In this document: positions 3,371-26,685 of the stretch, piece after piece
Layout: every line of letters starts with the position of its first letter
Numbering within the stretch: the first letter of the stretch is position 1
Origin: a virus
DNA length: 26,685 nt
Virus record (IMG/VR): IMGVR_UViG_3300045119_000245
Location: 1 to 26,685 of that record
Direction: 5' to 3' (one strand)
Notes under the pieces: model-generated
Databases searched by the model: none
Told to the model about the DNA's origin: nothing
Seen by the model: the letters and a program-made list of their open reading frames with translations, nothing else
Made by a program: the position numbers and the translations under genes

Positions 3371-3849
3371 GCTGCGCCATCTGAAGGCGGGAAGACGGCT
3401 TTCATCGTGAGTGCGGAGCCTGTGGCTTGCCGCAACGCGGTGATCATCGGGTGGCACGGCTGGGAACAGGCCCACGACAGGTAGACGAGCTCGTCCGGCG
3501 CGTACCCGGCATCAATCAGCAGCGCACGGTCGATCATGTGGTGCGCGACAAGCGTCCTGCCGAGTAGTCCAGCCTCCATGCGCGTCGCGGAGCAGATGAG
3601 GCAGCGGTCCTCGTCAAGGCGCCTGAGGACGCGACGTGGCCTTCTGGTCTTCTGTTCCTGCTTCGTGCGTGGTTTTGGCATCCAGTCTTCGTAGGCGCCG
3701 CAGTACACACAGTTGAGCCTCGCGAACTTGGACGAATCGTCCTCGGGGCCAATGAACACGAGCCCCGTATGACCACACTTGTTTTCGTGGTGATCGAGCC
3801 ATTCGCCGAGCGCCGCGATGTCGTCGTATCCGGGGAACGGTTCATTCAT
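3367..3849 (-). CDS. HNH-like zinc-binding nuclease domain protein
   Basis: The product is 160 aa with two metal-binding parts. An N-terminal CVYC (47-50) is preceded by CGH (25-27). The C-terminal part reads CLIC (83-86), then LVAHHMIDRALL (100-111), then WACSQPCH (126-133), which is the cysteine/histidine order of HNH nucleases. The segment between them is very basic (KQEQKTRRPRRVLRR). ATG 3849 overlaps the RecT-like stop (ATGA) and the stop overlaps the next ATG. It may be a Holliday-junction or packaging nuclease, or a zinc-binding protein without activity. Confidence 0.6.
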   Translation of the reverse strand: MNEPFPGYDDIAALGEWLDHHENKCGHTGLVFIGPEDDSSKFARLNCVYCGAYEDWMPKPRTKQEQKTRRPRRVLRRLDEDRCLICSATRMEAGLLGRTLVAHHMIDRALLIDAGYAPDELVYLSWACSQPCHPMITALRQATGSALTMKAVFPPSDGAA

Positions 3850-4511
3850 GGCTCGTCCTCGGCCATCTCCTGCAACGCCTCGACGACGGCGTTCTCGTCG
3901 TTGTCGTTCAGGTACTCCGACTCGAGCTCGTACTCCTCGACCGCGTCGATCCCTTCGGGGTTCCCGAACGGGATCTCGTCATCCACAAGATCGTCGGGCA
4001 AGGGTGGCGGGACGATCTCCTGGAGCTCGTCGTCCAACGCCAAGCCGAGCGCGACCTCGGGGGCGAAGTCGATGATCGCGTTCTTCGACGCCCTCGCCCA
4101 CAGCATCCTGCTCGGATGGGTCGTCCACGGCGACCCGGCACGGATCAGCCCGGCTTTCTTCGCGTGCTCGAGCGTGAACGTCGACTCGCCGAGGACGCGG
4201 CCTTCGTGGTCGACGATCCGGGCGGTGCACGTCTCGTCGGACAGGTCGACGCGGAAGATGCGGTAGCCGCGCTGCACCGCCAACGCCCGCAACAGCTGCG
4301 CCCCGACGTACAGCCGGCCTTTGATCATCGACAGCTCCGCGACCGCGAGCGGGGTGAGGCCGAGCTCGGTCGCGTAATACAGGCGCAGCGCAGCGGTGGC
4401 GCCCTTGGCGTTCGGGCTGCTGTCACCCGACTCGGCCGCGGCGAGCCACTGCCCCAACCTGGCGATCTCGTCGAGGCGGCCGGGTTGTTTCTTCGCGATG
4501 TCCTTCGTCAT
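3846..4511 (-). CDS. RecT-like single-strand annealing protein
   Basis: The product is 221 aa. Its core matches the RecT-type annealing family: ALRLYYATELGLTPLAVAELSMIKGRLYVGAQL (41-73, a helix then a beta hairpin), RVDLSDETCTARIV (87-100), a FTLEHAKKAGLI segment (112-123), and PWTTHPSRMLWARASKNAIIDFAPEVALG (128-156). The C terminus is strongly acidic. Such proteins anneal complementary strands during phage recombination and replication. ATG 4511 has a strong AAAGGAG at 7 bases and an ATGA overlap, so it is preferred to ATG 4541. No partner exonuclease is visible. Confidence 0.8.
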   Translation of the reverse strand: MTKDIAKKQPGRLDEIARLGQWLAAAESGDSSPNAKGATAALRLYYATELGLTPLAVAELSMIKGRLYVGAQLLRALAVQRGYRIFRVDLSDETCTARIVDHEGRVLGESTFTLEHAKKAGLIRAGSPWTTHPSRMLWARASKNAIIDFAPEVALGLALDDELQEIVPPPLPDDLVDDEIPFGNPEGIDAVEEYELESEYLNDNDENAVVEALQEMAEDEP

Positions 4512-5050
4512 CGTGTCGCTCCTTTCACAGACACGCGCCACGGCGTGTCAACAACCGTCCGGGATTTGTCAACAGCCGTCCTGTAGGCGGGGTTCGCGGC
4601 CGCGAGCTGCCTCAGGACGCGCTGGTCGACCTTGTACGACACCGTCTGCACGACCGCCTCCGCGATCCGTTCTTCGGGGAGGCCGGCGTCACGGAGACGC
4701 TCGGTCAGCAGCTCCGCGTCGAACTCGGACCGTTCCCCGCCGCTGATCACCGCGTCCAACGGGCCGAGATGGAGCGTCTTCGTGCCCTGCCGCAACGCCT
4801 CCAACCGGAGCACGCCCTCGAGGAGCGCGCGGAGCTCGTCGAGCTGGCGTTTCACCTCGCGGACGTCCTGCAACGCCCCGGCGACCTCCACCGGCCTGGT
4901 GAGGTCGATCACCTGGCCCGTCAACGGGACCACGATCGACGGGGTGTCCGCGACCTGCGCCTCGACAAGTGAGAGAGTGGTGTCCGGCGCCTGACCGCCT
5001 GTCGGGCTAGGCGGGGGTGACGGCGCAGGCGCCGGATCCTGGGCGGACAT
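4508..5050 (-). CDS. Conserved phage protein of unknown function next to RecT
   Basis: The product is 180 aa. A Pro-rich disordered leader (1-22) precedes a short beta element (PLTGQVIDLTRPVEVAGAL). A helical segment (EVKRQLDELRALLEGVLRLEA) follows, then a mixed C-terminal domain with LTERLRDAGLPEERIAEAVVQTV. Proteins of this layout are often found beside annealing proteins in actinophages, but I know no function. The ATG directly follows the TAG of the transglycosylase gene. The stop overlaps the RecT ATG, and the RecT ribosome-binding site lies inside its last codons. Confidence 0.65.
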   Translation of the reverse strand: MSAQDPAPAPSPPPSPTGGQAPDTTLSLVEAQVADTPSIVVPLTGQVIDLTRPVEVAGALQDVREVKRQLDELRALLEGVLRLEALRQGTKTLHLGPLDAVISGGERSEFDAELLTERLRDAGLPEERIAEAVVQTVSYKVDQRVLRQLAAANPAYRTAVDKSRTVVDTPWRVSVKGATR

Positions 5051-5392
5051 CTAGATCAGCCCGCACAATCTCGCGCTGTTCGGCCACGGGTAGAACCCGC
5101 GGCCCGACAGATACGCCCTCATGGCGACCGCGATCTGCACCGCGGGCGGCCAATGATCCGCCGTCCCCCACGCTTTCAGGTAATCCGGCCCGTAGGTGTT
5201 CATGAACGTCCAGTCCATCTGCAGGCCGCCGTAGTACGGGGCGCCAGGGTCCGTCCACGAGCCCTCGAACCGGTGGATGCACATGAACCCCCGCATGAGC
5301 GCATCCGGCGAAGAGCGCGTCGTTTTCGCGGTGACGGCCAGGGCGAGCGCGAGGAGGTAGAGGGCGAGGATGAGGTGGGCTGCACGGTTCAG
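5051..5392 (-). CDS. Transglycosylase-like lysin with N-terminal signal, probable CTG start
   Basis: The domain reads CIHRFEGSW, GAPYYGGLQMDW, YGPDYL, HWPPAVQIAVAMRAYLSGRG and YPWPNSARLCGL. This is the Rpf/lysozyme-like fold with the expected catalytic Glu in RFEG. The first ATG (5296) would remove everything upstream, but the frame stays open above it and encodes a hydrophobic segment LILALYLLALALAV. CTG 5392 (NRAAHL...) has AAGGG 9 bases upstream and lies 1 base after the stop of a 19-codon frame. From CTG it is 113 aa, an exported or signal-anchored muramidase acting on peptidoglycan. It may be a lysin or an entry enzyme. The start codon is inference. Confidence 0.7.
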   Translation of the reverse strand: MNRAAHLILALYLLALALAVTAKTTRSSPDALMRGFMCIHRFEGSWTDPGAPYYGGLQMDWTFMNTYGPDYLKAWGTADHWPPAVQIAVAMRAYLSGRGFYPWPNSARLCGLI

Positions 5393-5393
5393 A

Positions 5394-5453
5394 TCACCGA
5401 TCCCTTCGTGAGATTGAGATGGCCTCGCCGGACGGTTCGCCGGCGGCTTTCAA
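5394..5453 (-). CDS. 19-codon linking micro-ORF before the transglycosylase
   Basis: A TTG in a TTGA overlap with the 35-aa membrane gene opens a 19-codon frame. Its TGA ends 1 base before the proposed CTG start of the transglycosylase. It would carry ribosomes to a weak start. The peptide itself (KAAGEPSGEAISISRRDR) shows no known feature. Confidence 0.3.
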   Translation of the reverse strand: MKAAGEPSGEAISISRRDR

Positions 5454-5557
5454 CGGTCGTCCCGGTACAGGTCGAGGAGCTCCCAGATGTCCGCCCACAA
5501 CGCGTTCAGCAGGGCGCCGAACGCGACCCCGAACAGGAACATCAACGCCGCGGTCAC
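5450..5557 (-). CDS. 35-aa membrane protein, holin-like
   Basis: The GTG at 5557 overlaps the stop of the 23-aa gene (GTGA). One hydrophobic helix (AALMFLFGVAFGALLNALWA) is followed by an acidic, charged tail ending YRDDR. It lies just before the transglycosylase, so a holin or export-helper role is suggested by position. The overlap and codon pattern support it as a gene; the function is not certain. Confidence 0.5.
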   Translation of the reverse strand: MTAALMFLFGVAFGALLNALWADIWELLDLYRDDR

Positions 5558-5625: not shown

Positions 5626-5741
5626 TTGACCTCCGCGGCGGCGCTCGAGTTCACCCAGCTTCGATCCACGGGCAGTGCTCGATACGGCAAGGTCGCCCAC
5701 GCCGCCGCCGGAGGTCGGTAACTGGGGCTCGAGTCCCTCAA
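5622..5741 (-). CDS. 39-aa protein with degenerate NPSKR-type start
   Basis: The TTG at 5741 overlaps the stop of the 47-aa gene (TTGA), and the TGA overlaps the GTG of the next membrane gene. The first residues RDSSPSYRP match the repeated DSNPSKRP start of its neighbours, both in protein and DNA. This is the best evidence that the frame is real. The remainder (AAAWATLPYRALPVDRSWV) has no known motif. Confidence 0.4.
   Translation of the reverse strand: MRDSSPSYRPPAAAWATLPYRALPVDRSWVNSSAAAEVK
5706..5741 (-). repeat. NPSKR gene-start repeat, degenerate copy
   Basis: GGGACTCGAGCCCCAGT, then TACCG, matches the repeat consensus with several changes and with two codons missing at the 5' end. 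It again sits exactly at an overlapping stop/start (TTGA), and encodes RDSSPSYRP. Confidence 0.55.
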
Positions 5742-5881
5742 TGCTTCTCCAGCGCCCATCCGGCCGGGACAAGCAGCACGGTGAGCGCGAGACGAATCTG
5801 GCCGCGTCGTAGACAGATGAGCGCGGCGTCGCGCCGAATCTTCTTCGACCGTTTTCTGGGGTTCGAGTCCGGAAGGGTCAC
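5738..5881 (-). CDS. 47-aa basic protein with NPSKR-type start
   Basis: GTG 5881 lies in a GTGA overlap. The product begins TLPDSNPRKRSKKIRRD, a copy of the repeated gene-start element, followed by a basic stretch and a hydrophobic segment (LALTVLLVPAGWAL). It may be membrane-associated with a positively charged N terminus. No family is recognised. Confidence 0.5.
   Translation of the reverse strand: MTLPDSNPRKRSKKIRRDAALICLRRGQIRLALTVLLVPAGWALEKH
5846..5881 (-). repeat. NPSKR gene-start repeat, copy 1
   Basis: This is a 36-base element spanning the start of the 47-aa gene. On the minus strand it encodes TLPDSNPRKRS. It shares the block GAACCCCAG...AAACGG with the copies at 6300, 6515, 6635 and 6749. 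Confidence 0.8.
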
Positions 5882-6048
5882 GATACGGGGCGTTCGTAGC
5901 GAGCTTCTAGGTCTGCGACGCGGAGCGCCTCGATCTGGCGCTCGACCTCCTGCATCCACTCGGACAGGTGGTGTTTGAAGTTGGCCTCACCCTCGATGAC
6001 GAAGAACCGAAGTTCCTCTAGCCGCTCTCCGGGCGTCCTCTCAGTCAC
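5878..6048 (-). CDS. 56-aa helical protein of unknown function
   Basis: GTG 6048 overlaps the MazG-like stop (GTGA), and the stop overlaps the next GTG. The product is charged and mostly helical (GERLEELRFFVIEGEANFKHHLSEWMQEVERQIEAL), with no metal or catalytic motif. Unlike its neighbours it lacks the NPSKR start. No family is recognised. Confidence 0.55.
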   Translation of the reverse strand: MTERTPGERLEELRFFVIEGEANFKHHLSEWMQEVERQIEALRVADLEARYERPVS

Positions 6049-6335
6049 AACGCATCCCTGAGCACGCGGAGGGCAACGGCGGCGACCTGTAGCACCTCGG
6101 CGCGGGTGTTCTCGAACGTTGGGGCGCGGCGCTCCTCGCGCCATGCTTGCAACGCTTCGGCGACTTCGTCTTCCAGGCACGCGAGTCCGAGCCGCGAGCG
6201 ACCGAGTTGCGTCGTGCCGCTGAACCGGCCGTGCTTGTCGTCTTGTCGCGCGATCTCCTGAAGAAGCCGGTAGACCAGCGGATCGATAACTTCGCTCTCC
6301 GGCCGTTTACTGGGGTTCTGATCCGCAAGGCTCAT
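6045..6335 (-). CDS. MazG-like nucleotide pyrophosphohydrolase with NPSKR tag
   Basis: The product is 96 aa. Residues 1-12 are the repeated tag (SLADQNPSKRP). The rest follows the all-alpha NTP pyrophosphohydrolase plan: LLQEIARQDDKHGRF, then GLACLEDEVAEALQAW with the acidic metal-binding residues, then RAEVLQVAAVALRVL. Such phage enzymes hydrolyse NTPs or dNTPs to monophosphates, for example to shape the nucleotide pool. ATG 6335 is in an ATGA overlap with the excisionase-like gene. Catalytic activity is inferred from the motif pattern only. Confidence 0.6.
   Translation of the reverse strand: MSLADQNPSKRPESEVIDPLVYRLLQEIARQDDKHGRFSGTTQLGRSRLGLACLEDEVAEALQAWREERRAPTFENTRAEVLQVAAVALRVLRDAL
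6300..6335 (-). repeat. NPSKR gene-start repeat, copy 2
   Basis: Located at the start of the MazG-like gene, this copy includes the ATGA stop/start overlap. It encodes SLADQNPSKRP and is nearly identical to copy 5 (6749-6784) except around the D-S/Q codons. Confidence 0.85.
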
Positions 6336-6784
6336 TCGCGCCGCCCCACCAGGTATGCCTCGAACGCGGCCTCGGGGATGCGAACAGCCTTCTCGCCAAC
6401 CCTGATCGAGGGCAACACACCGTCGGCGCACATCCCATAGACAGTGGTGATGTTCAGGCTCAATCTTTCGGCGACCTCGCTGGCCTTCAAGTAACCGGCG
6501 TCTTTCTCGTCGTCCGGCCGTTTACTGGGGTTCGAGTCCGCCAAGCCGGTCGGTGTATACTCTGACCGTTCACCGCCGGGGATCAGCGGGGCCGGGAAAC
6601 CGGCCCTTTCCTTTTCGCCAGGTGCGACACCCGTCCGCCGTTTTCCGGGGTTCTGATCCGCTAGGCCGCCCGGTGAGACAGGCCCGAATGCGTTACCCGA
6701 CGCAGCCGCGGACTGGTCGGTGCCCGGACGGTTTCCTGTCTCACCTGACGGCCGTTTACTGGGATTCGAATCCGGAAGGCTCAT
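6332..6784 (-). CDS. Excisionase/AlpA-like HTH protein with three NPSKR repeats
   Basis: The product is 150 aa. The N-terminal two thirds is disordered and carries three copies of the L(A/P)D(S/Q)NP(S/G)KR motif (start, about residue 40, about residue 80). The C-terminal domain (YLKASEVAERLSLNITTVYGM, then LPSIRVGEKAVRIPEAAFEAYL) is a MerR/excisionase-type winged HTH. Such proteins act as recombination directionality factors or small regulators. Since the phage has an integrase, a role in excision is reasonable. ATG 6784 overlaps the previous stop (ATGA). Whether the tags are functional is unknown. Confidence 0.65.
   Translation of the reverse strand: MSLPDSNPSKRPSGETGNRPGTDQSAAASGNAFGPVSPGGLADQNPGKRRTGVAPGEKERAGFPAPLIPGGERSEYTPTGLADSNPSKRPDDEKDAGYLKASEVAERLSLNITTVYGMCADGVLPSIRVGEKAVRIPEAAFEAYLVGRRE
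6515..6550 (-). repeat. NPSKR repeat, copy 3 (internal)
   Basis: This copy is inside the excisionase-like gene, in the same reading frame as the copies at gene starts. It encodes GLADSNPSKRPDD and retains the DNA block GAACCCCAGTAAACGGCCG. Confidence 0.85.
6635..6670 (-). repeat. NPSKR repeat, copy 4 (internal)
   Basis: A second internal copy in the excisionase-like gene, encoding GLADQNPGKRR. It is 120 bases from copy 3 and 114 from copy 5, both multiples of three. Confidence 0.8.
6749..6784 (-). repeat. NPSKR gene-start repeat, copy 5
   Basis: This copy is at the start of the excisionase-like gene across its ATGA overlap. It encodes SLPDSNPSKRP. Confidence 0.85.
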
Positions 6785-6996
6785 TGGGCCTCCCGTTCGA
6801 CGATCTCGACGCCGCCGGCGAGGATCACGTCGACGATTGAGTCGTCGAGGTAGCGGACGATGTAGACCTTCGCGGGCTCGGCGACCTTCAGATCGATCAC
6901 GACGCGGGCGACGTCCTTCGGGTCGTCCGCGAACACGCCCGCCGCGTGCAGCGCCTGATAGATGCCGTCGCTGAGCGACCCGACGACGATCTTCAC
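6781..6996 (-). CDS. 71-aa conserved-type phage protein, unknown
   Basis: GTG 6996 overlaps the stop of a 16-codon frame (GTGA). The product reads KIVVGSLSDGIYQALHAAGV, then ARVVIDLKVAEPAKVYIVRYLDD, then VDVILAGGVEIV, a compact alpha/beta layout. Short proteins with this pattern are frequent in actinophage early regions; the function is not known to me. Its stop overlaps the ATG of the excisionase-like gene. Confidence 0.6.
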   Translation of the reverse strand: MKIVVGSLSDGIYQALHAAGVFADDPKDVARVVIDLKVAEPAKVYIVRYLDDSIVDVILAGGVEIVEREAQ

Positions 6997-7043: not shown

Positions 7044-7135
7044 AGATTGACCCGCTCGATCAGGTGCGGCTCGAGGACGGCTGGTAGTCGCCACCGGCCC
7101 CAACGGTCACGAGTGAATCCGGCCTCCTCTATCAT
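7040..7135 (-). CDS. 31-aa small protein after the DUF5131 gene
   Basis: ATG 7135 is in an ATGA overlap with the stop of the HTH-DUF5131 gene. The sequence (IEEAGFTRDRWGRWRLP, then LEPHLIERVNL) is amphipathic and W/R-rich. It is coupled to the cassette above and could be its fourth member. No family is recognised. Confidence 0.45.
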   Translation of the reverse strand: MIEEAGFTRDRWGRWRLPAVLEPHLIERVNL

Positions 7136-8196
7136 CGCGGCCACTCCCGCACGGGTTGCATGCCTGGGCCACGGCCGTGGACCGAGCCGAACAGGTTGTG
7201 CTTCAGGTAGACGCGGCAGCCGGCCTTGCGGGCCTGCTCGTACAAGTCAACGACCCACTCGAACGGCGGCGCGAACGGCTCCGCGTGAGCCGATCCGGTC
7301 GAGGCGCCGATCACGACCCAGTCGAACATCGCGAGGCTCTCGAACTGGAGCGGCTCGAGGAGCGGCTCGCAAGAGAGCCACTTCACCCCGGCAGTGACGC
7401 CGGCGAAAGCGCGTTCAGCTACAGCGACCTTGTGCTGCCTGTCAACGGTAGTACCTGCCCACACGTTGTCGGGCCACTCCAGTTGGGCCAAGCGCTGGGG
7501 GAACTTCGTCAGACAGAGGTACTCCCATTGGCGGTGTTGATCGATCGCGTTGAAGACCGCTGTGATCCACTCCTGCGGCACCCATTTGCCGAACAAGTCC
7601 GCCATCGAGCACGTGAAAACTCGGCGCCATTCGGGATCGTCGTCAGCGGTTTTAGGCAATCGCGTATTTGCCGGGGCATCGAGTCGTTCCGGCAGAAACG
7701 TCGGCTCGAACTTCTGCGGGTAGAACCGCTCGGCGAGGTCGCGGGCGTAGCAGTAGTCGCAGTTGTGCAAGCAGCCGGTGACGGGGTTCCACGACCACCG
7801 CGCCCAACCGATGTTGTCGTTGACCCTGTTGAATGTGGCTGGTGCATTTGCACCATTCGATTCGCCCGCGCCCACTTCGAGAGCGGCATCGAGAAGCAAT
7901 GCTGGTGCATTTGCACCACCGTTGTTGTCTCGCACGATCGTCGAGTGATCGACGCCAAGTACTGCGCCGATCTCCCGAGTTGTCATTCCTTCCTCGGTGA
8001 GCTCGGCGACTGCGTCACGGCGATCGTCGATCTTCAAGCGCATGTGGCCACCGACGTATTTCTCCGCCCACTCCTTGAGCTCGAGGCCGAGGGCATCCGG
8101 GATGCCCTCGCGGTGCGCCCAAGCGACCTGACGCCACCACCCCGCGCCAATCTGACCGAAGGCCTCCGAGAACTCTTCCGCTGCTTCGCGATCCAC
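7132..8196 (-). CDS. HTH domain fused to three-Cys-motif (phage Gp37/Gp68, DUF5131) protein
   Basis: The product is 354 aa. Residues 58-90 form a resolvase/ParB-type HTH (DDRRDAVAELTEEGMTTREI and GVDHSTIVRD). Residues 128-354 match the DUF5131 family: WSWNPVTGC, then C-x3-C-x2-C at 142, 146 and 149, FTCSMADLFG, WEYLCLTKFPQRL, VWAGTTV, WLSCEPLLEPL and DWVVIGAST. The triple-cysteine arrangement resembles a radical-SAM 4Fe-4S site. GTG 8196 has AAGGAG 5 bases upstream and a 1-base overlap with the HNH gene. The linker between domains carries two identical DNA dyads. The reaction and substrate are unknown; the HTH fusion suggests a DNA-linked job. Confidence 0.8.
   Translation of the reverse strand: MDREAAEEFSEAFGQIGAGWWRQVAWAHREGIPDALGLELKEWAEKYVGGHMRLKIDDRRDAVAELTEEGMTTREIGAVLGVDHSTIVRDNNGGANAPALLLDAALEVGAGESNGANAPATFNRVNDNIGWARWSWNPVTGCLHNCDYCYARDLAERFYPQKFEPTFLPERLDAPANTRLPKTADDDPEWRRVFTCSMADLFGKWVPQEWITAVFNAIDQHRQWEYLCLTKFPQRLAQLEWPDNVWAGTTVDRQHKVAVAERAFAGVTAGVKWLSCEPLLEPLQFESLAMFDWVVIGASTGSAHAEPFAPPFEWVVDLYEQARKAGCRVYLKHNLFGSVHGRGPGMQPVREWPR
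7840..7855. promoter_or_regulatory. 16-bp dyad, copy 1, inside the HTH-DUF5131 gene
   Basis: TGGTGCATTTGCACCA has 7-base perfect arms around a TT centre. It is identical to the copy 63 bp away. It encodes GANAP in the linker. It could be an operator for the HTH of the same protein, or simply a repeated linker peptide. Confidence 0.45.
7903..7918. promoter_or_regulatory. 16-bp dyad, copy 2, inside the HTH-DUF5131 gene
   Basis: This is an exact second copy of the dyad at 7840, also preceded by GC. The 63-bp centre distance is about six helical turns. I found no third copy in the window. Confidence 0.45.
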
Positions 8197-8420
8197 TACC
8201 GCTCCTTGCCATGCTCGGCGGCATGGCAGGACTGGCAGATCGGCTCGAGGTTCTCGACGACGTCGAAGGTGCCCCACGGGGGGTAGCGAAGATGGTGCAC
8301 CTGAGTCGCTCGACCGCCGCAGCGTTGGCAGCGCCAGCCGGCGCGTTCCATCGCCTCACGCCGAACAGCACGGAACCGCGGGTGAGCAAGGTACTCGGCG
8401 TAGGAGCGGTAAGCGATCAT
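8196..8420 (-). CDS. HNH endonuclease
   Basis: The product is 74 aa and a complete small HNH fold: WRCQRCGG (28-35), QVHHLRYPPWGTFDVVENLEPIC (39-61) and CQSCHAAEHG (61-70). All zinc and catalytic residues are in place. ATG 8420 overlaps the TcmP-like stop (ATGA), and its TAG shares a base with the GTG of the DUF5131 gene. It could be the nuclease of this cassette, or a homing-type nuclease. Confidence 0.8.
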   Translation of the reverse strand: MIAYRSYAEYLAHPRFRAVRREAMERAGWRCQRCGGRATQVHHLRYPPWGTFDVVENLEPICQSCHAAEHGKER

Positions 8421-9223
8421 GCGGTCTCGAAGAGGCGTGGGTGGTCGCGCTCATAGAGCTCCTGCAGCGTCCGGTCGAGCTCAGCGAGTCGCTCAAACGC
8501 CGGCTCGCCGGTGATGAACCCACGCACGCCCCAGCGTGAATTCTCGAGGTGGTTGGTGTCGGAGCCGAGCGCCATCACCCACTGGTGCGCGGTGTTCGCC
8601 TCGCGGACGTGCCAGTAGCGTTTGCCGATCGCCTTGACGTCGTCGACGAGTGAGCGTTCGTGGTAGCCGGCGCGCCGCGGCCGCTTGTAAGCGCTGTTCG
8701 CGGAGACGTGCAGGAGCACGTCGAGCCTGTCGAGGCCAGGGGTCGCGAGTAGCCCTCTGATCGTGTCGCAGGGGATCAGGCCGCCGCCGTCGAGGTCGAC
8801 GTAGATCAGGCCGAGCGAGCGGCGCGGCGGCGGTGTGAGGACGTACTCCTTGATCTCGGCGAGCGTGTCCCCGTCGTTGTGGTCGCCGGTGACGATCGCT
8901 ACCGGGTCGTGTTCGTGGCCGTTACGGTCGAGCCACTCGCTGAGGTCGGCGACGTGGTCGGGGTCGCGCTCGACGAACACGACCCGGTAGCGGGTGTTCA
9001 GTCCGTTAAGGAGACGCAGCAGGATCGTGGGGCTGCCTTCGTGCATGTCGCCGTTCCGGTCGGGGAATGCGTGACGACCGGCGGTGAGGTCGACCACGGT
9101 GATCTCGTTCCACACCCACGGCTGCCGGCGGGCGTTGTGCGCGATCCCGAACACAGCGCCCGCGAGCGCACGGAGGTCGTCCTGCTTCTTCGGCGTGTTC
9201 TCCGGGCTCGCGTGGAAAGTCAC
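8417..9223 (-). CDS. TcmP-like (three-Cys-motif partner) protein
   Basis: The product is 268 aa. ITVVDLTAGRHAFP (41-54) followed by HEGSPTILLRLL (61-72), then YRVVFVERDPDHVADLSEWL (79-98) and LGLIYVDLDGGGLIP (about residues 137-151), follows the Rossmann-like plan of TcmP proteins. These are named for occurring next to DUF5131 three-Cys-motif proteins. Exactly that partner lies one gene downstream, which strengthens the call. GTG 9223 is used; the hairpin 9221-9251 covers it. Biochemical function is unknown; a methyltransferase-like fold is possible. Confidence 0.65.
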   Translation of the reverse strand: MTFHASPENTPKKQDDLRALAGAVFGIAHNARRQPWVWNEITVVDLTAGRHAFPDRNGDMHEGSPTILLRLLNGLNTRYRVVFVERDPDHVADLSEWLDRNGHEHDPVAIVTGDHNDGDTLAEIKEYVLTPPPRRSLGLIYVDLDGGGLIPCDTIRGLLATPGLDRLDVLLHVSANSAYKRPRRAGYHERSLVDDVKAIGKRYWHVREANTAHQWVMALGSDTNHLENSRWGVRGFITGEPAFERLAELDRTLQELYERDHPRLFETA

Positions 9224-9251
9224 AAAACCCGCCTGTTTGCAGGGTTTTGTG
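9221..9251. promoter_or_regulatory. Inverted repeat covering the TcmP-like start
   Basis: CACAAAACCC (9221-9230) pairs perfectly with GGGTTTTGTG (9242-9251) around an 11-base loop. It lies between the integrase/attP block and the TcmP-like gene, and its lower arm contains the GTG start. It might be a terminator for integrase transcription, a translation-blocking hairpin, or a protein-binding site of the attP region. No T-run follows on the minus strand. Confidence 0.5.
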
Positions 9252-9275
9252 GTTTTCGGGCTTTATGCCTGTAAC

Positions 9276-9292
9276 AGCGGATGGAATCCGCT
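9276..9292. repeat. Short inverted repeat near attP
   Basis: AGCGGA and TCCGCT (6-base arms, 5-base loop) lie between the larger hairpin and the attP direct repeats. This may be one of several protein-binding elements of the site. Confidence 0.3.
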
Positions 9293-9300
9293 AGGCGAAA

Positions 9301-9331
9301 ATCCCTGCTGAGCGCGCTTTCGGGATGTGAC
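9301..9331. repeat. attP-flanking 31-bp direct repeat, copy A
   Basis: ATCCCTGC (9301-9308) and GGGATGTGAC (9322-9331) start 21 bp apart. The same two blocks with the same 21-bp offset recur at 9364. The repeats bracket the tRNA-like core, as integrase or Xis arm sites would. Confidence 0.7.
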
Positions 9332-9336
9332 GGAAC

Positions 9337-9361
9337 GCGGGTTCGATTCCCGCCGCCTCCA
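9337..9361 (+). other. attP core: 3' end of a tRNA or tmRNA gene
   Basis: GCGGG (9337), loop TTCGATT (9342-9348) and CCCGC (9349-9353) form a perfect T-arm. It is followed by the acceptor strand CGCCTCC and A at 9361, with no encoded CCA. There is no 5' half of the RNA in the window. Tyrosine integrases commonly recombine at such 3' ends so that the host gene is restored on insertion, and the integrase gene stops 37 bases away. A tmRNA target is possible, since upstream bases also look tmRNA-like; which RNA is not decided. Confidence 0.8.
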
Positions 9362-9363
9362 TA

Positions 9364-9394
9364 ATCCCTGCAAATACGCTCGCCGGGATGTGAC
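9364..9394. repeat. attP-flanking 31-bp direct repeat, copy B
   Basis: This is the second copy of ATCCCTGC and GGGATGTGAC with 21-bp offset, starting exactly 63 bp after copy A on the other side of the T-arm core. Confidence 0.7.
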
Positions 9395-9397
9395 ACT

Positions 9398-10597
9398 TTA
9401 CAAAGCCTCTTTTTCGGCGTTGTCTTCGTAGACGCCGAAGTCGTCGGCGCGGTTCATCTCGCGGAGGGCGGTCGCCAGGTCGAGCGTGTCGAGATCGCTG
9501 TAGATCGACGTCGTCCCGACGTCTCTGTGGCCGAGCATCAACTGTGTCAGCTTCAGGTCGTGGTGTGCGCGCTGAAGGTCCCGGCCGGCGGTGTGGCGAC
9601 CGCGGTGCATGTTGGCTCCGGACGTGACACCCGCCTCGACATGCCCGGCGAGCTGCAAGCAGCGGTACCACCACCGGTGCACCGCCTGCACGCTCAGCCG
9701 TTCCGGGCCGTGGGCGCGAGTAGTGACGTTCGCGTACCCGACCCGCTGCCTACCGACCTGCAGCACCTCGTCGGCGGCGTCGAGCGGGACCTTCCGGCGG
9801 CGGGTGTCCTGCCGGTACAGAAGGTAATCCTCCTCGCTGAGTTGGGCCTCGAGTTGGAGCTCGGCGAGGCGCCGCCAGAAGTGGGCCTCGACGATCGGGA
9901 GCGGGTACACCCGTCCGCCCTTGGTGCGGACGATCAGCTCGCGTTTCTCGAAGTCGAAGTCTCCGAGCCTGATGTTCCGGATCCCGGAGCGACGCAGCCC
10001 GTACCGGAGCACGAGGAAGCAGAGAACCCAGTCAGCGACGTACTCCTGCCGGCCAAGGACCTGCTTGACGGTGTTCTCGGTGAACGTCTTCCGTTCGACG
10101 TCGCGGGCCTTCGGGACGGTAAGCGCACGGGACGGGTTGCCCGGCAGGCCGCATTCACGGATCGCCCAGTCGAAGAAATCGTTCCAGATCGACCTGACTT
10201 TCTTCTTCGTGCGGGGCGACCGGTCGCGCCAGTGACGGGCGAGGCATTCCCGGCAGAGCTCGATTCCGGCCGGCGGGGTGAAGTCGAGGATCCCGACGGT
10301 GGGGTTGTCGAGCGCGAGCCACGCCAGTGGGGGCTCGTAGTCGCGGAGCGTGTCCTCGGCGGCGCCCCATTCGTGCTCTTTCCAGCTGAGATACCGCGCG
10401 ATGTCCCAGCCGAGCGGTGTCTGCTGGTAGCGCTTGTCAAGCACGGGGTTGTCCAGGATCGCCCTGGCCTCCGCGAGCGTGAATAGCGCCTGCGTAAGAT
10501 CGTTGCCGCATGGGAGCTGAACCCTCCTGTGCCGTGCCCGGGCCGTTTCGGCGGCGCCGGGCTTCTTGTTGTCGGCCAGGAGGATACTCCCGTTCAC
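9398..10597 (-). CDS. int: Tyrosine integrase
   Basis: The product is 399 aa. The core-binding domain (about 35-165) is followed by a catalytic domain with Arg202 in RYGLRRSGI, Lys226 in RTKGGR, box HRGR at 331-334, LGHRD with His357, and nucleophile Tyr366 in SIYSDLD. All residues of the family are present, so it should be active. It catalyses site-specific integration and excision at the adjacent attP. GTG 10597 overlaps the XRE-gene stop (GTGA) and is preferred to the ATG at 10642. Co-transcription with the regulator couples integration to the lysogeny decision. Confidence 0.92.
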   Translation of the reverse strand: MNGSILLADNKKPGAAETARARHRRVQLPCGNDLTQALFTLAEARAILDNPVLDKRYQQTPLGWDIARYLSWKEHEWGAAEDTLRDYEPPLAWLALDNPTVGILDFTPPAGIELCRECLARHWRDRSPRTKKKVRSIWNDFFDWAIRECGLPGNPSRALTVPKARDVERKTFTENTVKQVLGRQEYVADWVLCFLVLRYGLRRSGIRNIRLGDFDFEKRELIVRTKGGRVYPLPIVEAHFWRRLAELQLEAQLSEEDYLLYRQDTRRRKVPLDAADEVLQVGRQRVGYANVTTRAHGPERLSVQAVHRWWYRCLQLAGHVEAGVTSGANMHRGRHTAGRDLQRAHHDLKLTQLMLGHRDVGTTSIYSDLDTLDLATALREMNRADDFGVYEDNAEKEAL

Positions 10598-10845
10598 GGC
10601 AGCAGGTCTCCGAACATCAGGTAGGCGGCGCTGGCACGACACGCTTTCGCGACCCGGACCAGATGATGATCGCTGGGGAAGCGTTGCTCGGCCTCCCAGC
10701 GGCAGACGGTGGCGTACGTCACCTCGACCGTCTCCGCGAGCTCGCGTTGGGTCTTGTTGACGGCGAGCCTCGCGGCCCGGATCCGGCGCCCGTACCCGGG
10801 GGTGGGGTCGGTCGCGTTCGCGGACGCCTCAGCCAGCATCTCCAT
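10594..10845 (-). CDS. XRE/Cro-CI-type HTH regulator, repressor candidate
   Basis: The product is 83 aa from ATG 10845, which has AGGAGG about 10 bases upstream; a longer start at 10926 would run through the promoter region. The HTH is RIRAARLAVNKTQRELAETVEVTYATVCRWEAEQRFPSDHHLVRVAKA, a classical XRE helix-turn-helix. A short hydrophobic tail ends at FGDLLP. There is no protease or dimerisation domain of the LexA-like CI type. It is first in an operon with the integrase and divergent from the HTH gene at 11077, so it is the best immunity-repressor candidate. Confidence 0.75.
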   Translation of the reverse strand: MEMLAEASANATDPTPGYGRRIRAARLAVNKTQRELAETVEVTYATVCRWEAEQRFPSDHHLVRVAKACRASAAYLMFGDLLP

Positions 10846-11277: not shown

Positions 11278-11446
11278 CCGGCCGGCGCCAAGCACTGGAC
11301 AGAGCTCGGCAGCCGGCCGACCCCTGACGGTAGCCCAGGTGAGCACACCCCAGATGGGGGATACGTGCCGTCGAGCAAGGCCGGTACCTTCCCGTGTGAA
11401 CCCCGGCGGGTCTTCCGGCGGGGGAACTGGACAAAAGGAGTTTTCA
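11278..11446 (+). other. Intergenic region between HTH gene and secreted-protein gene
   Basis: 169 bases without a supported gene. They contain two CCGGCCG blocks (11279-11320) and a CCGGCGGG direct repeat near 11405-11420, both rich in potential stems. The promoter of the secreted-protein gene is expected here, but I cannot place a convincing -35/-10 pair. Confidence 0.4.
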
Positions 11447-19409: not shown

Positions 19410-19798
19410 CAGACCGGCCCTCCGTGGTTGAAGTCGTCAGCGGCACGGTCGAGGAGCTCCTCGAGGCGGGCCTCGACCTCGGCTTCGTGCTGGTCGAGCG
19501 CGGGTTGCATCGCGCGGTCCATCAGCAGGTCGGCCAGGTTCGGCCGCCGCCGCGGTCCGCGGCCACGGGTGCCTTTCTGCCTGGGCGCGACGTACACGAG
19601 GTTGCGTGTGACCCCGACCCGCATCCTCGACCACTTGGGCCCGATGTTGCGGATGTTCGTCTGGGCGAGCTCCTCGGCGCCGCGTTGGACGGGCTCGGCG
19701 GCCTGCCGGAGCCCGCGGCGGACACCGAGCCGCACCGAGCGGTCGGCGTGGGCTAGTGCGGCCTGCAGCTCATGCAACCCCCGGACGACGATCGGCAT
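19409..19798 (-). CDS. HK97 gp10-like tail-completion protein
   Basis: The product is 129 aa with the family layout: a helical start (RGLHELQAALAHADRSVRLG, then LRQAAEPVQRGAEELAQ), a strand VGVTRNLVYVAP, then a basic loop and a terminal helix (MQPALDQHEAEVEARLEELL). Proteins of this family act at the head-tail joining or tail-terminator complex. It is unusual in lying after the major tail protein, not before it. The Shine-Dalgarno sequence is weak and the gene lies 7 bases after the previous stop. Confidence 0.65.
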   Translation of the reverse strand: MPIVVRGLHELQAALAHADRSVRLGVRRGLRQAAEPVQRGAEELAQTNIRNIGPKWSRMRVGVTRNLVYVAPRQKGTRGRGPRRRPNLADLLMDRAMQPALDQHEAEVEARLEELLDRAADDFNHGGPV

Positions 19799-26184: not shown

Positions 26185-26685
26185 CAGTACACCGCCGCCA
26201 CCGGCACGGGCCTATGCGCCGCGTTCACGGCCCAGCACAACGCCTTCACCAGATGCGTCGCCCCGGTCGGCACCAGCGTCAGTCCGGTCGAGAGCTCTTT
26301 CACCTGCGCCTGCGCGACCGCCTGGTCGAGGGTCACGTTGGTGTCGTCATGGACGACCATCCCGGTTGTTTCGTCGTGGGCGAGCACGCCGCCCGCCGCG
26401 AGATCGCGGAGCAGCGGCAATCCCACCCTCGTCTCGATGCTCCCCGCCGGCTCAGGGGGCGGGACCATCCCGGGCGGCACCCTGTCGAGCAGGCTCGCCC
26501 CGACGAGCAGCTGCCGGATCTGCCGGGACACGCCGAGCCGGTCAACGTCGTCGATCGCGGTGTCCCAGTCCGGGCACAGCCACCCGTCAACCTCGATCCG
26601 GCCGTCGGGGAGCGGCGCCGCGACAGCGACCGCCGCGCCACGACCGAAATGATCCTCGACCGCGACAAACATCGGGCCGTCACCC
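26184..26685 (-). CDS. HNH-terminase large subunit fusion (3' part)
   Basis: C-terminal continuation of the gene starting at 1437; 26559-26685 duplicates 1-127. It contains the rest of the RNase H-like nuclease (AAPLPDGRIEVDGWLCPDWD, then VSRQIRQLLVGASLLDRVPP) and the final acidic-residue helix region ending PVPVAAVY. The TGA overlaps the portal ATG. Residues about 441-603 of the fusion are encoded here. Confidence 0.9.
   Translation of the reverse strand, partial: GDGPMFVAVEDHFGRGAAVAVAAPLPDGRIEVDGWLCPDWDTAIDDVDRLGVSRQIRQLLVGASLLDRVPPGMVPPPEPAGSIETRVGLPLLRDLAAGGVLAHDETTGMVVHDDTNVTLDQAVAQAQVKELSTGLTLVPTGATHLVKALCWAVNAAHRPVPVAAVY
26559..26685. repeat. Terminal redundancy, right copy
   Basis: Exact copy of 1-127; remove one copy to obtain the 26,558-bp circle. 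Confidence 0.95.

Follow-up and report, generated by a model that had tools for sequence, protein, structure and literature searches.

How does a row of unrelated small genes in one phage come to begin with the same sequence? The DNA analysed here, a viral contig of 26,685 nt (the window), carries on its minus strand an array of small genes in which one short sequence recurs, mostly at gene starts. A preliminary description of these copies had proposed that they could be a mobile translational-start cassette, a protein tag recognised by a common partner, or a DNA or RNA site that happens to be coding. The ends of the contig, 1-127 and 26559-26685, are identical over 127 bp, so it is likely to be a complete phage genome, either circular or terminally redundant.

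The description of the copies themselves, five strong and one degenerate, held up on analysis. Scanning the minus strand for GAACCCCAGTAAACGG with at most two mismatches gave five matches (6752, 6638, 6518, 6303 and 5849), whereas 0.16 would be expected by chance at up to three mismatches, and all five GAACCCCAGTAAACGG-type cores lie between 5849 and 6767. A repeat search independently recovered the element as a 37-nt family (D3). The PWM scan of the window ranked the degenerate copy sixth, the weakest match at 14 bits, and found no copies beyond the array at 5713-6784, for example none near the repressor. Direct reading showed the stop/start overlaps ATGA (6784), ATGA (6335), GTGA (5881) and TTGA (5741), as had been claimed for four of the copies, and placed the other two in frame inside the excisionase-like gene. 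A single frame encodes L-x-D-x-N/S-P in 6/6 copies, also in agreement with the preliminary description.

Table 1. Copies of the element, genes of the array and its surroundings in the window.
Feature	Positions	Strand	Observations
Copy 1	6748-6784	minus	ATG start overlaps stop of 6781-6996; core GGATTCGAATCCCAGT at 6773-6758; MSLPDSNPSKRP
Copy 2	6635-6671	minus	Internal, in frame; core GGATCAGAACCCCGGA at 6659-6644; GLADQNPGKR
Copy 3	6515-6551	minus	In frame within ORF; core GGACTCGAACCCCAGT at 6539-6524; possible TTG start 6544; immediately before HTH_17/excisionase-like domain
Copy 4	6300-6336	minus	ATG 6335 overlaps preceding stop; core GGATCAGAACCCCAGT at 6324-6309; MSLADQNPSKRP
Copy 5	5846-5882	minus	GTG 5881 overlaps preceding stop; core GGACTCGAACCCCAGA at 5870-5855; VTLPDSNPRKR
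Copy 6, degenerate	5713-5741	minus	TTG 5741 overlaps preceding stop; GGACTCGAGCCCCAGTTACC; LRDSSPSYRP
Left anchor gene of array	6781-6996	minus	G033 has a homolog (49% aa identity) ahead of its array
Tagged ORF with three in-frame copies and C-terminal HTH_17/excisionase-like domain	6332-6784	minus	Reads as fused cassettes
Tagged ORF, 96 aa	6045-6335	minus	Weak match to phrog_2831 (unknown function)
Untagged small gene within array	5878-6045	minus	Direct reading
Tagged ORF, 47 aa	5738-5881	minus	No family match
ORF with degenerate tag, 39 aa	5622-5741	minus	PWM scan
Right anchor small gene	5444-5557	minus	G001 and G007 have homologs immediately behind their arrays
Transglycosylase-like gene after array	5051-5390	minus	Untagged in window; tagged in G030
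RecT-like single-strand annealing protein	3846-4541	minus	Candidate recombinase
Tyrosine integrase	9398-10642	minus	

The HTH_17/excisionase domain, the sole recognisable domain of the ORF at 6332-6784, is confined to aa 98-145, so all three copies in this ORF are N-terminal to it, in otherwise unrecognised sequence; the TTG within the ORF offers an alternative start. Viral relatives of the ORF were searched for and none was found, and the ORF comparison found no homologs of the window's own tagged genes in the other element-bearing records. A search of the array region for sigma-70-like promoters found none, and the accessory genes of the array are apparently promoterless. Within the excisionase-like ORF, at 6588-6607, we noted a strong plus-strand terminator-like hairpin followed by TTCCTTTTC, where a plus-strand gene is not evident. 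The gene at 7132-8277 encodes a DUF5131 protein, which gives a weak radical-SAM signal and has an additional HTH region at its N-terminus.

The preliminary description suggested looking for the element and its motif in related phages. Pattern scans of IMG/VR with GGA-N4-AAYCCC[AC]G, combined with reads of whole records, gave 68 matches, 66 of them non-redundant, in 25 viral records, compared with 1.8 expected from dinucleotide shuffles. By all-against-all ORF comparison these records fall into at least three lineages and some unplaced contigs: A, whose members have the window's structural genes, B, an unrelated group, and C, a third. The lineages have few or no structural genes in common, and apart from a lysin-like ORF and a handful of accessory genes there is little overlap between A and B. 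Several lineages nevertheless contain identical cores (alleles). When k-mers lying downstream of overlapping starts were counted, no other start-associated sequence in these phages was as widespread as the element. Several unrelated uncultured soil phages, in short, start many small accessory genes with the same DNA stretch of about 30 bases. The copies recur across independent metagenomes, which speaks against misassembly. Recent local duplication, which had been proposed from conserved synonymous sites, does not explain them either, because the resemblance among cores of one genome does not significantly exceed that to cores of other genomes (0.839 versus 0.821, p=0.087) or of other lineages (p=0.47).

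Pattern searches of the isolated phages in INPHARED, of PLSDB plasmids and of GTDB genomes did not find the element, and its sequence had no match in the phage literature searched. A host search of GTDB genomes with the element pattern and a tmRNA 3'-end pattern gave zero matches. The nearest matches of the MCP are those of Mycobacterium phages, with aa identity reaching about 50%, and from this similarity an actinobacterial host is likely.

What is conserved in the element is its nucleotide sequence and not its peptide. The consensus is CTWSCGGA-N4-AAYCCCAGT, often followed by AAACGGCNG, and the positions between about -5 and +24 relative to GGA carry high information content (CTWSCGGANNNNAAYCCCAGTAAACGGCNG), with the caveat that positions within the search core are biased. 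To avoid this bias we used a peptide-led scan for in-frame [DE]xNP within 7 codons of a start. The Pro codon was CCC in all clear family members, the exception being a frame variant in G001 with CCA. Among the 66 cores, the Ser codon is AGT in 47 of the 48 cases in which Ser occupies that place, while the codon between D/E and N takes 8 forms, encoding Ser, Gln, Gly, Ala, Pro or Arg. In the genes of the window AGT accounts for only 1% of Ser codons, GAT for 11% of Asp and AAT for 5% of Asn. Fixation of CCC and AGT against codon bias, next to a free codon, indicates constraint or common descent at the nucleotide level. To this extent the proposal of a DNA or RNA site that happens to be coding is supported, but no RNA structure or hairpin conserved across copies, no inverted repeat foldable in all of them, no promoter and no binding protein was found.

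Fifty-one of the 66 copies start an ORF with at least 20 codons past the D/E codon, 7 start mini-ORFs, and 8 are internal or without a near start; ATGA, GTGA or TTGA is used by 46 of the 58 copies having a near start. The mini-ORFs, such as MTLPDSNPGGRP (G001), VTDQNPRKRP (G006) and MIRLPDQNPRRST (G012), each ending there in a stop codon, begin on the previous stop and finish over the next start. The tagged proteins include an MT-A70 methylase, DUF1643, a transglycosylase-like protein, CxxC-containing small proteins and an HTH_17 protein. For two of these, untagged orthologs exist. The MT-A70 methylase begins VTLPESNPS before YRTIVADPPW when tagged (G028) and VK before the same residues when untagged (G001), showing that the tag replaces the first two codons of the gene; the transglycosylase-like protein carries the tag in G030 and lacks it in G010, G025, G033, G034 and, by reading of its sequence, the window. 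The seven free mini-ORFs, together with orthologs that occur with and without the tag, imply that the peptide is not a required tag. Relatives lacking the tag had been named in the preliminary description as grounds for refutation, and for the tag reading these grounds apply. A functional peptide, L-[PA]-[DE]-x-N-P-[SR]-K-R, to which one shared partner binds would account for the frame kept in all copies and for the conservative D/E alternation. We nevertheless consider it highly improbable, because the codons are fixed against codon bias although one residue is free, the mini-ORFs carry nothing to tag, orthologs do without it, and the proteins that it precedes are unrelated.

Other start-associated sequences were seen in these phages. 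In lineage B a second recurrent start tag, DKAGY/HKAGY (ATAAGGCCGGTTA), is found in frame close to gene starts (L097, G003 at 19616 and 20089; L181, G031 at 11289 and 11391), and G031 has it joined to the NPSKR element head to tail. In G001 (L092), 8183-8357 holds a repeated sister start tag, MTGRRDANPSS, with the GATGCGAATCCCAGT core in common.

In lineage A the array lies between the integrase and a block made up of a conserved small gene, the transglycosylase and the RecT-like gene, and its contents differ from phage to phage. It is downstream of the integrase (scored by presence of PF00589) in lineages A and C, while in lineage B the integrase is 13-15 kb from the array. In most records of lineages A, C and D an annealase gene lies at the far side of the array, and G004 has an Erf-type annealase in the position corresponding to the RecT-like gene; in lineage B no annealase was detected with the models used.

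Just downstream of the window's integrase, at 9310-9370, TGGAGGCGGCGGGAATCGAACCCGCGTTCCGTCACATCCCG resembles an antisense tmRNA 3' end and is likely an attP, judging from this resemblance; the exact 35-mer of the site was found in no GTDB genome. The adjoining block at 9223-9303 is 80-90% identical to post-integrase sequences of G007, G027 and G028, and the att-adjacent block of G007 has CCTAGCGGATTCGAACC in common with the start element, a possible origin of the latter. An origin in a tRNA T-arm or att site was also considered, as GGANTCGAACC is the reverse complement of a tRNA T-arm and attP-like. However, with the alleles CAG, GGT and CCT the T-loop is lost, and lineage B arrays are far from the integrase, so we retain it only as a possible origin. 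Mimicry of CCCCAGTAAACGGCGG, which we take to be a 23S rRNA sequence, was rejected, the full sequence being present in 0 of 68 copies. So was a phage-encoded tRNA array, for which there was no tRNA, one implausible tmRNA* call and no Rfam match.

Do genes move at the element? One clear case is the comparison of G025 and G034 (G032 is a duplicate of G034 from another sample). Between -500 and +15 of the element the two have 99.6% identity; a different gene follows in each (442 versus 187 bp), after which identity returns, at 97%. The left breakpoint is at the end of the core and the right edge is without a clear element. The swapped gene of G034 has 79% nt identity to a tagged gene of G007, from lineage A, only over -6 to +197. 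A second case comes from the contig ends of G009 (L110/L108), which overlap by 133 bp and then diverge. They represent a single locus that has a 110-bp cassette in one version and not in the other; one end lacks exactly one inter-element cassette, with the junction in shared CGGATTCGAATCCCAG. This difference could be a chimeric read or contig end. Among all pairs, blastn HSP ends were not enriched at elements (7 observed versus 7.6 expected). Between the left and right flanks of the element there is no association (mean z 0.00), while neighbouring positions are associated, as are, strongly, the middle codon and the third base of AAY. Since association inside the flanks also drops off beyond about 5 nt, this assortment test cannot place crossovers. 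The case for shuffling depends on few clear events.

The explanation that we put forward, giving it about an even chance of being right, is that small genes are shuffled by means of the element, which would be a translated recombination linker that preserves the frame. The linker, of about 30 nt with the core CGGA-N4-AAYCCCAGT, begins just past a start codon that usually overlaps the previous stop, and small accessory genes of a hypervariable locus have it at their 5' edge. Its repeats may provide short homology for cassette exchange, deletion or fusion between phages, probably mediated by RecT-like or Erf-type annealing proteins. Because frame and stop/start overlap are kept in every copy, an incoming gene would automatically be in frame and translationally coupled. 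Cassettes losing their body would persist as mini-ORFs, and those losing their stop would turn into fused ORFs, such as the window's excisionase-like gene. The mobile translational-start cassette of the preliminary description comes closest to the evidence, given the overlapping starts, the occurrence in unrelated phages and at least one clean gene swap at an element edge. Taken together, the three proposals of that description are partly supported. Tentatively, one may go further and imagine that uncultured soil phages possess a dedicated system of gene cassettes, with the coding, frame-locked linker as its recombination site; cassettes behind it would automatically be in frame and translationally coupled to the preceding gene, and a linker/cassette pool would circulate among phages without common structural genes.

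Use of homology alone does not account for the strict retention of CCC and AGT, which is better explained if the core is read as DNA or mRNA and sets translation initiation or reinitiation, or transcription, with shuffling as a by-product. Such a regulatory element would also fit the strict nucleotide conservation in general, the locking of the copies to starts and the coding strand, including the frequent ATGA, GTGA and TTGA overlaps, and the start-associated repeats on unrelated genes of Cluster K phages (PMC3203893). It is rather unlikely, given that neither a conserved RNA structure nor a sigma-70-like promoter in the region was found, that 8 of 66 copies are internal to ORFs or without a near start, that orthologs survive without the element, and that the window has no copies beyond the array, for instance near the repressor. 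The regulatory role and the linker role are compatible, and both may be true.

A more specialised form of exchange, at a site-specific recombination site of an integron-like gene-cassette system using the phage integrase or an unknown recombinase, would explain why the swap edge falls exactly at the core end, why arrays adjoin the integrase in lineages A and C, why the middle codon varies like an overlap region, and why the att-adjacent block has a sequence in common with the element. We find it distinctly unlikely in view of the distance between integrase and array in lineage B, the failure to find a serine recombinase, the presence of the attC box GTTRRRY near just 4 of 68 copies, and the lack of a foldable inverted repeat common to all copies. 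The internal copies, the presence or absence among orthologs and the in-frame position within unrelated proteins recall instead a selfish coding repeat inserting near gene starts, like the Rickettsia palindromic elements in genes. Restriction to one locus and to gene starts speaks against such a repeat; terminal inverted repeats and target duplication were not seen, and in the MT-A70 gene the tag substitutes for the first two codons instead of inserting. There is little chance that this reading is correct.

Among known systems, the linker appears by analogy to behave most like the PeSLs of T4, boundary sequences and the repeats of Cluster O, without the tested defining features of PeSLs, SAS and attC; as these features fail, we rate it as a translated, frame-locked junction linker. 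The PeSLs (promoter early stem-loops) of T4-like phages are said to have been presented by Arbiol in 2010 and Comeau in 2014 as 'mobile regulatory cassettes' (cited in PMC4503421). They too are short sequences recurring at gene junctions in a hyperplastic region and proposed for gene shuffling. PeSLs consist, however, of a noncoding promoter and stem-loop, whereas the element is translated, in one frame, without promoter or conserved hairpin. In a model for phage recombination, homology in short conserved gene-boundary sequences targets the exchange (PMC3233612); the element differs in recurring at many junctions per genome and in unrelated lineages, inside coding sequence. The SAS of Cluster K mycobacteriophages, GGGATAGGAGCCC, precedes the start codon by a few bases, at the place of the RBS, with function unknown and a regulatory role guessed (PMC3203893). 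It resembles the element in being short, in a single orientation and at the starts of unrelated accessory genes of actinobacterial phages, of which orientation and different gene families hold for the element, but the element is longer and begins downstream of the start codon. The consensus GGGATAGGAGCCC had one 2-mismatch match in the window (12517), which is chance level. Recombination between the 17-bp repeats of Cluster O mycobacteriophages appears to lie behind gene insertions and deletions (PMC4351075); unlike the element, these repeats are palindromic, genome-wide and fixed in neither orientation nor frame. Integron gene cassettes with attC have been reported in phages as well (PMC9892861) and share with our arrays the small genes and a recurrent junction per gene, but the element is 5' and coding, without attC boxes (GTTRRRY/RYYYAAC) or fold. 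The stoperators of Cluster A, finally, which the phage repressor binds, are spread genome-wide, including the early promoter region, while all copies in the window are at 5713-6784.

For annotation, these results warn that conserved N-termini on unrelated phage proteins are not necessarily functional tags. They also bear on the old question of whether mosaic joints at gene boundaries arise from targeted boundary homology or from blind recombination followed by selection. If our explanation is true, targeted joints would have a direct case, open to testing, in a repeated, translated and frame-preserving linker that unrelated phages share, and it would show how tiny accessory genes remain expressed during swapping.
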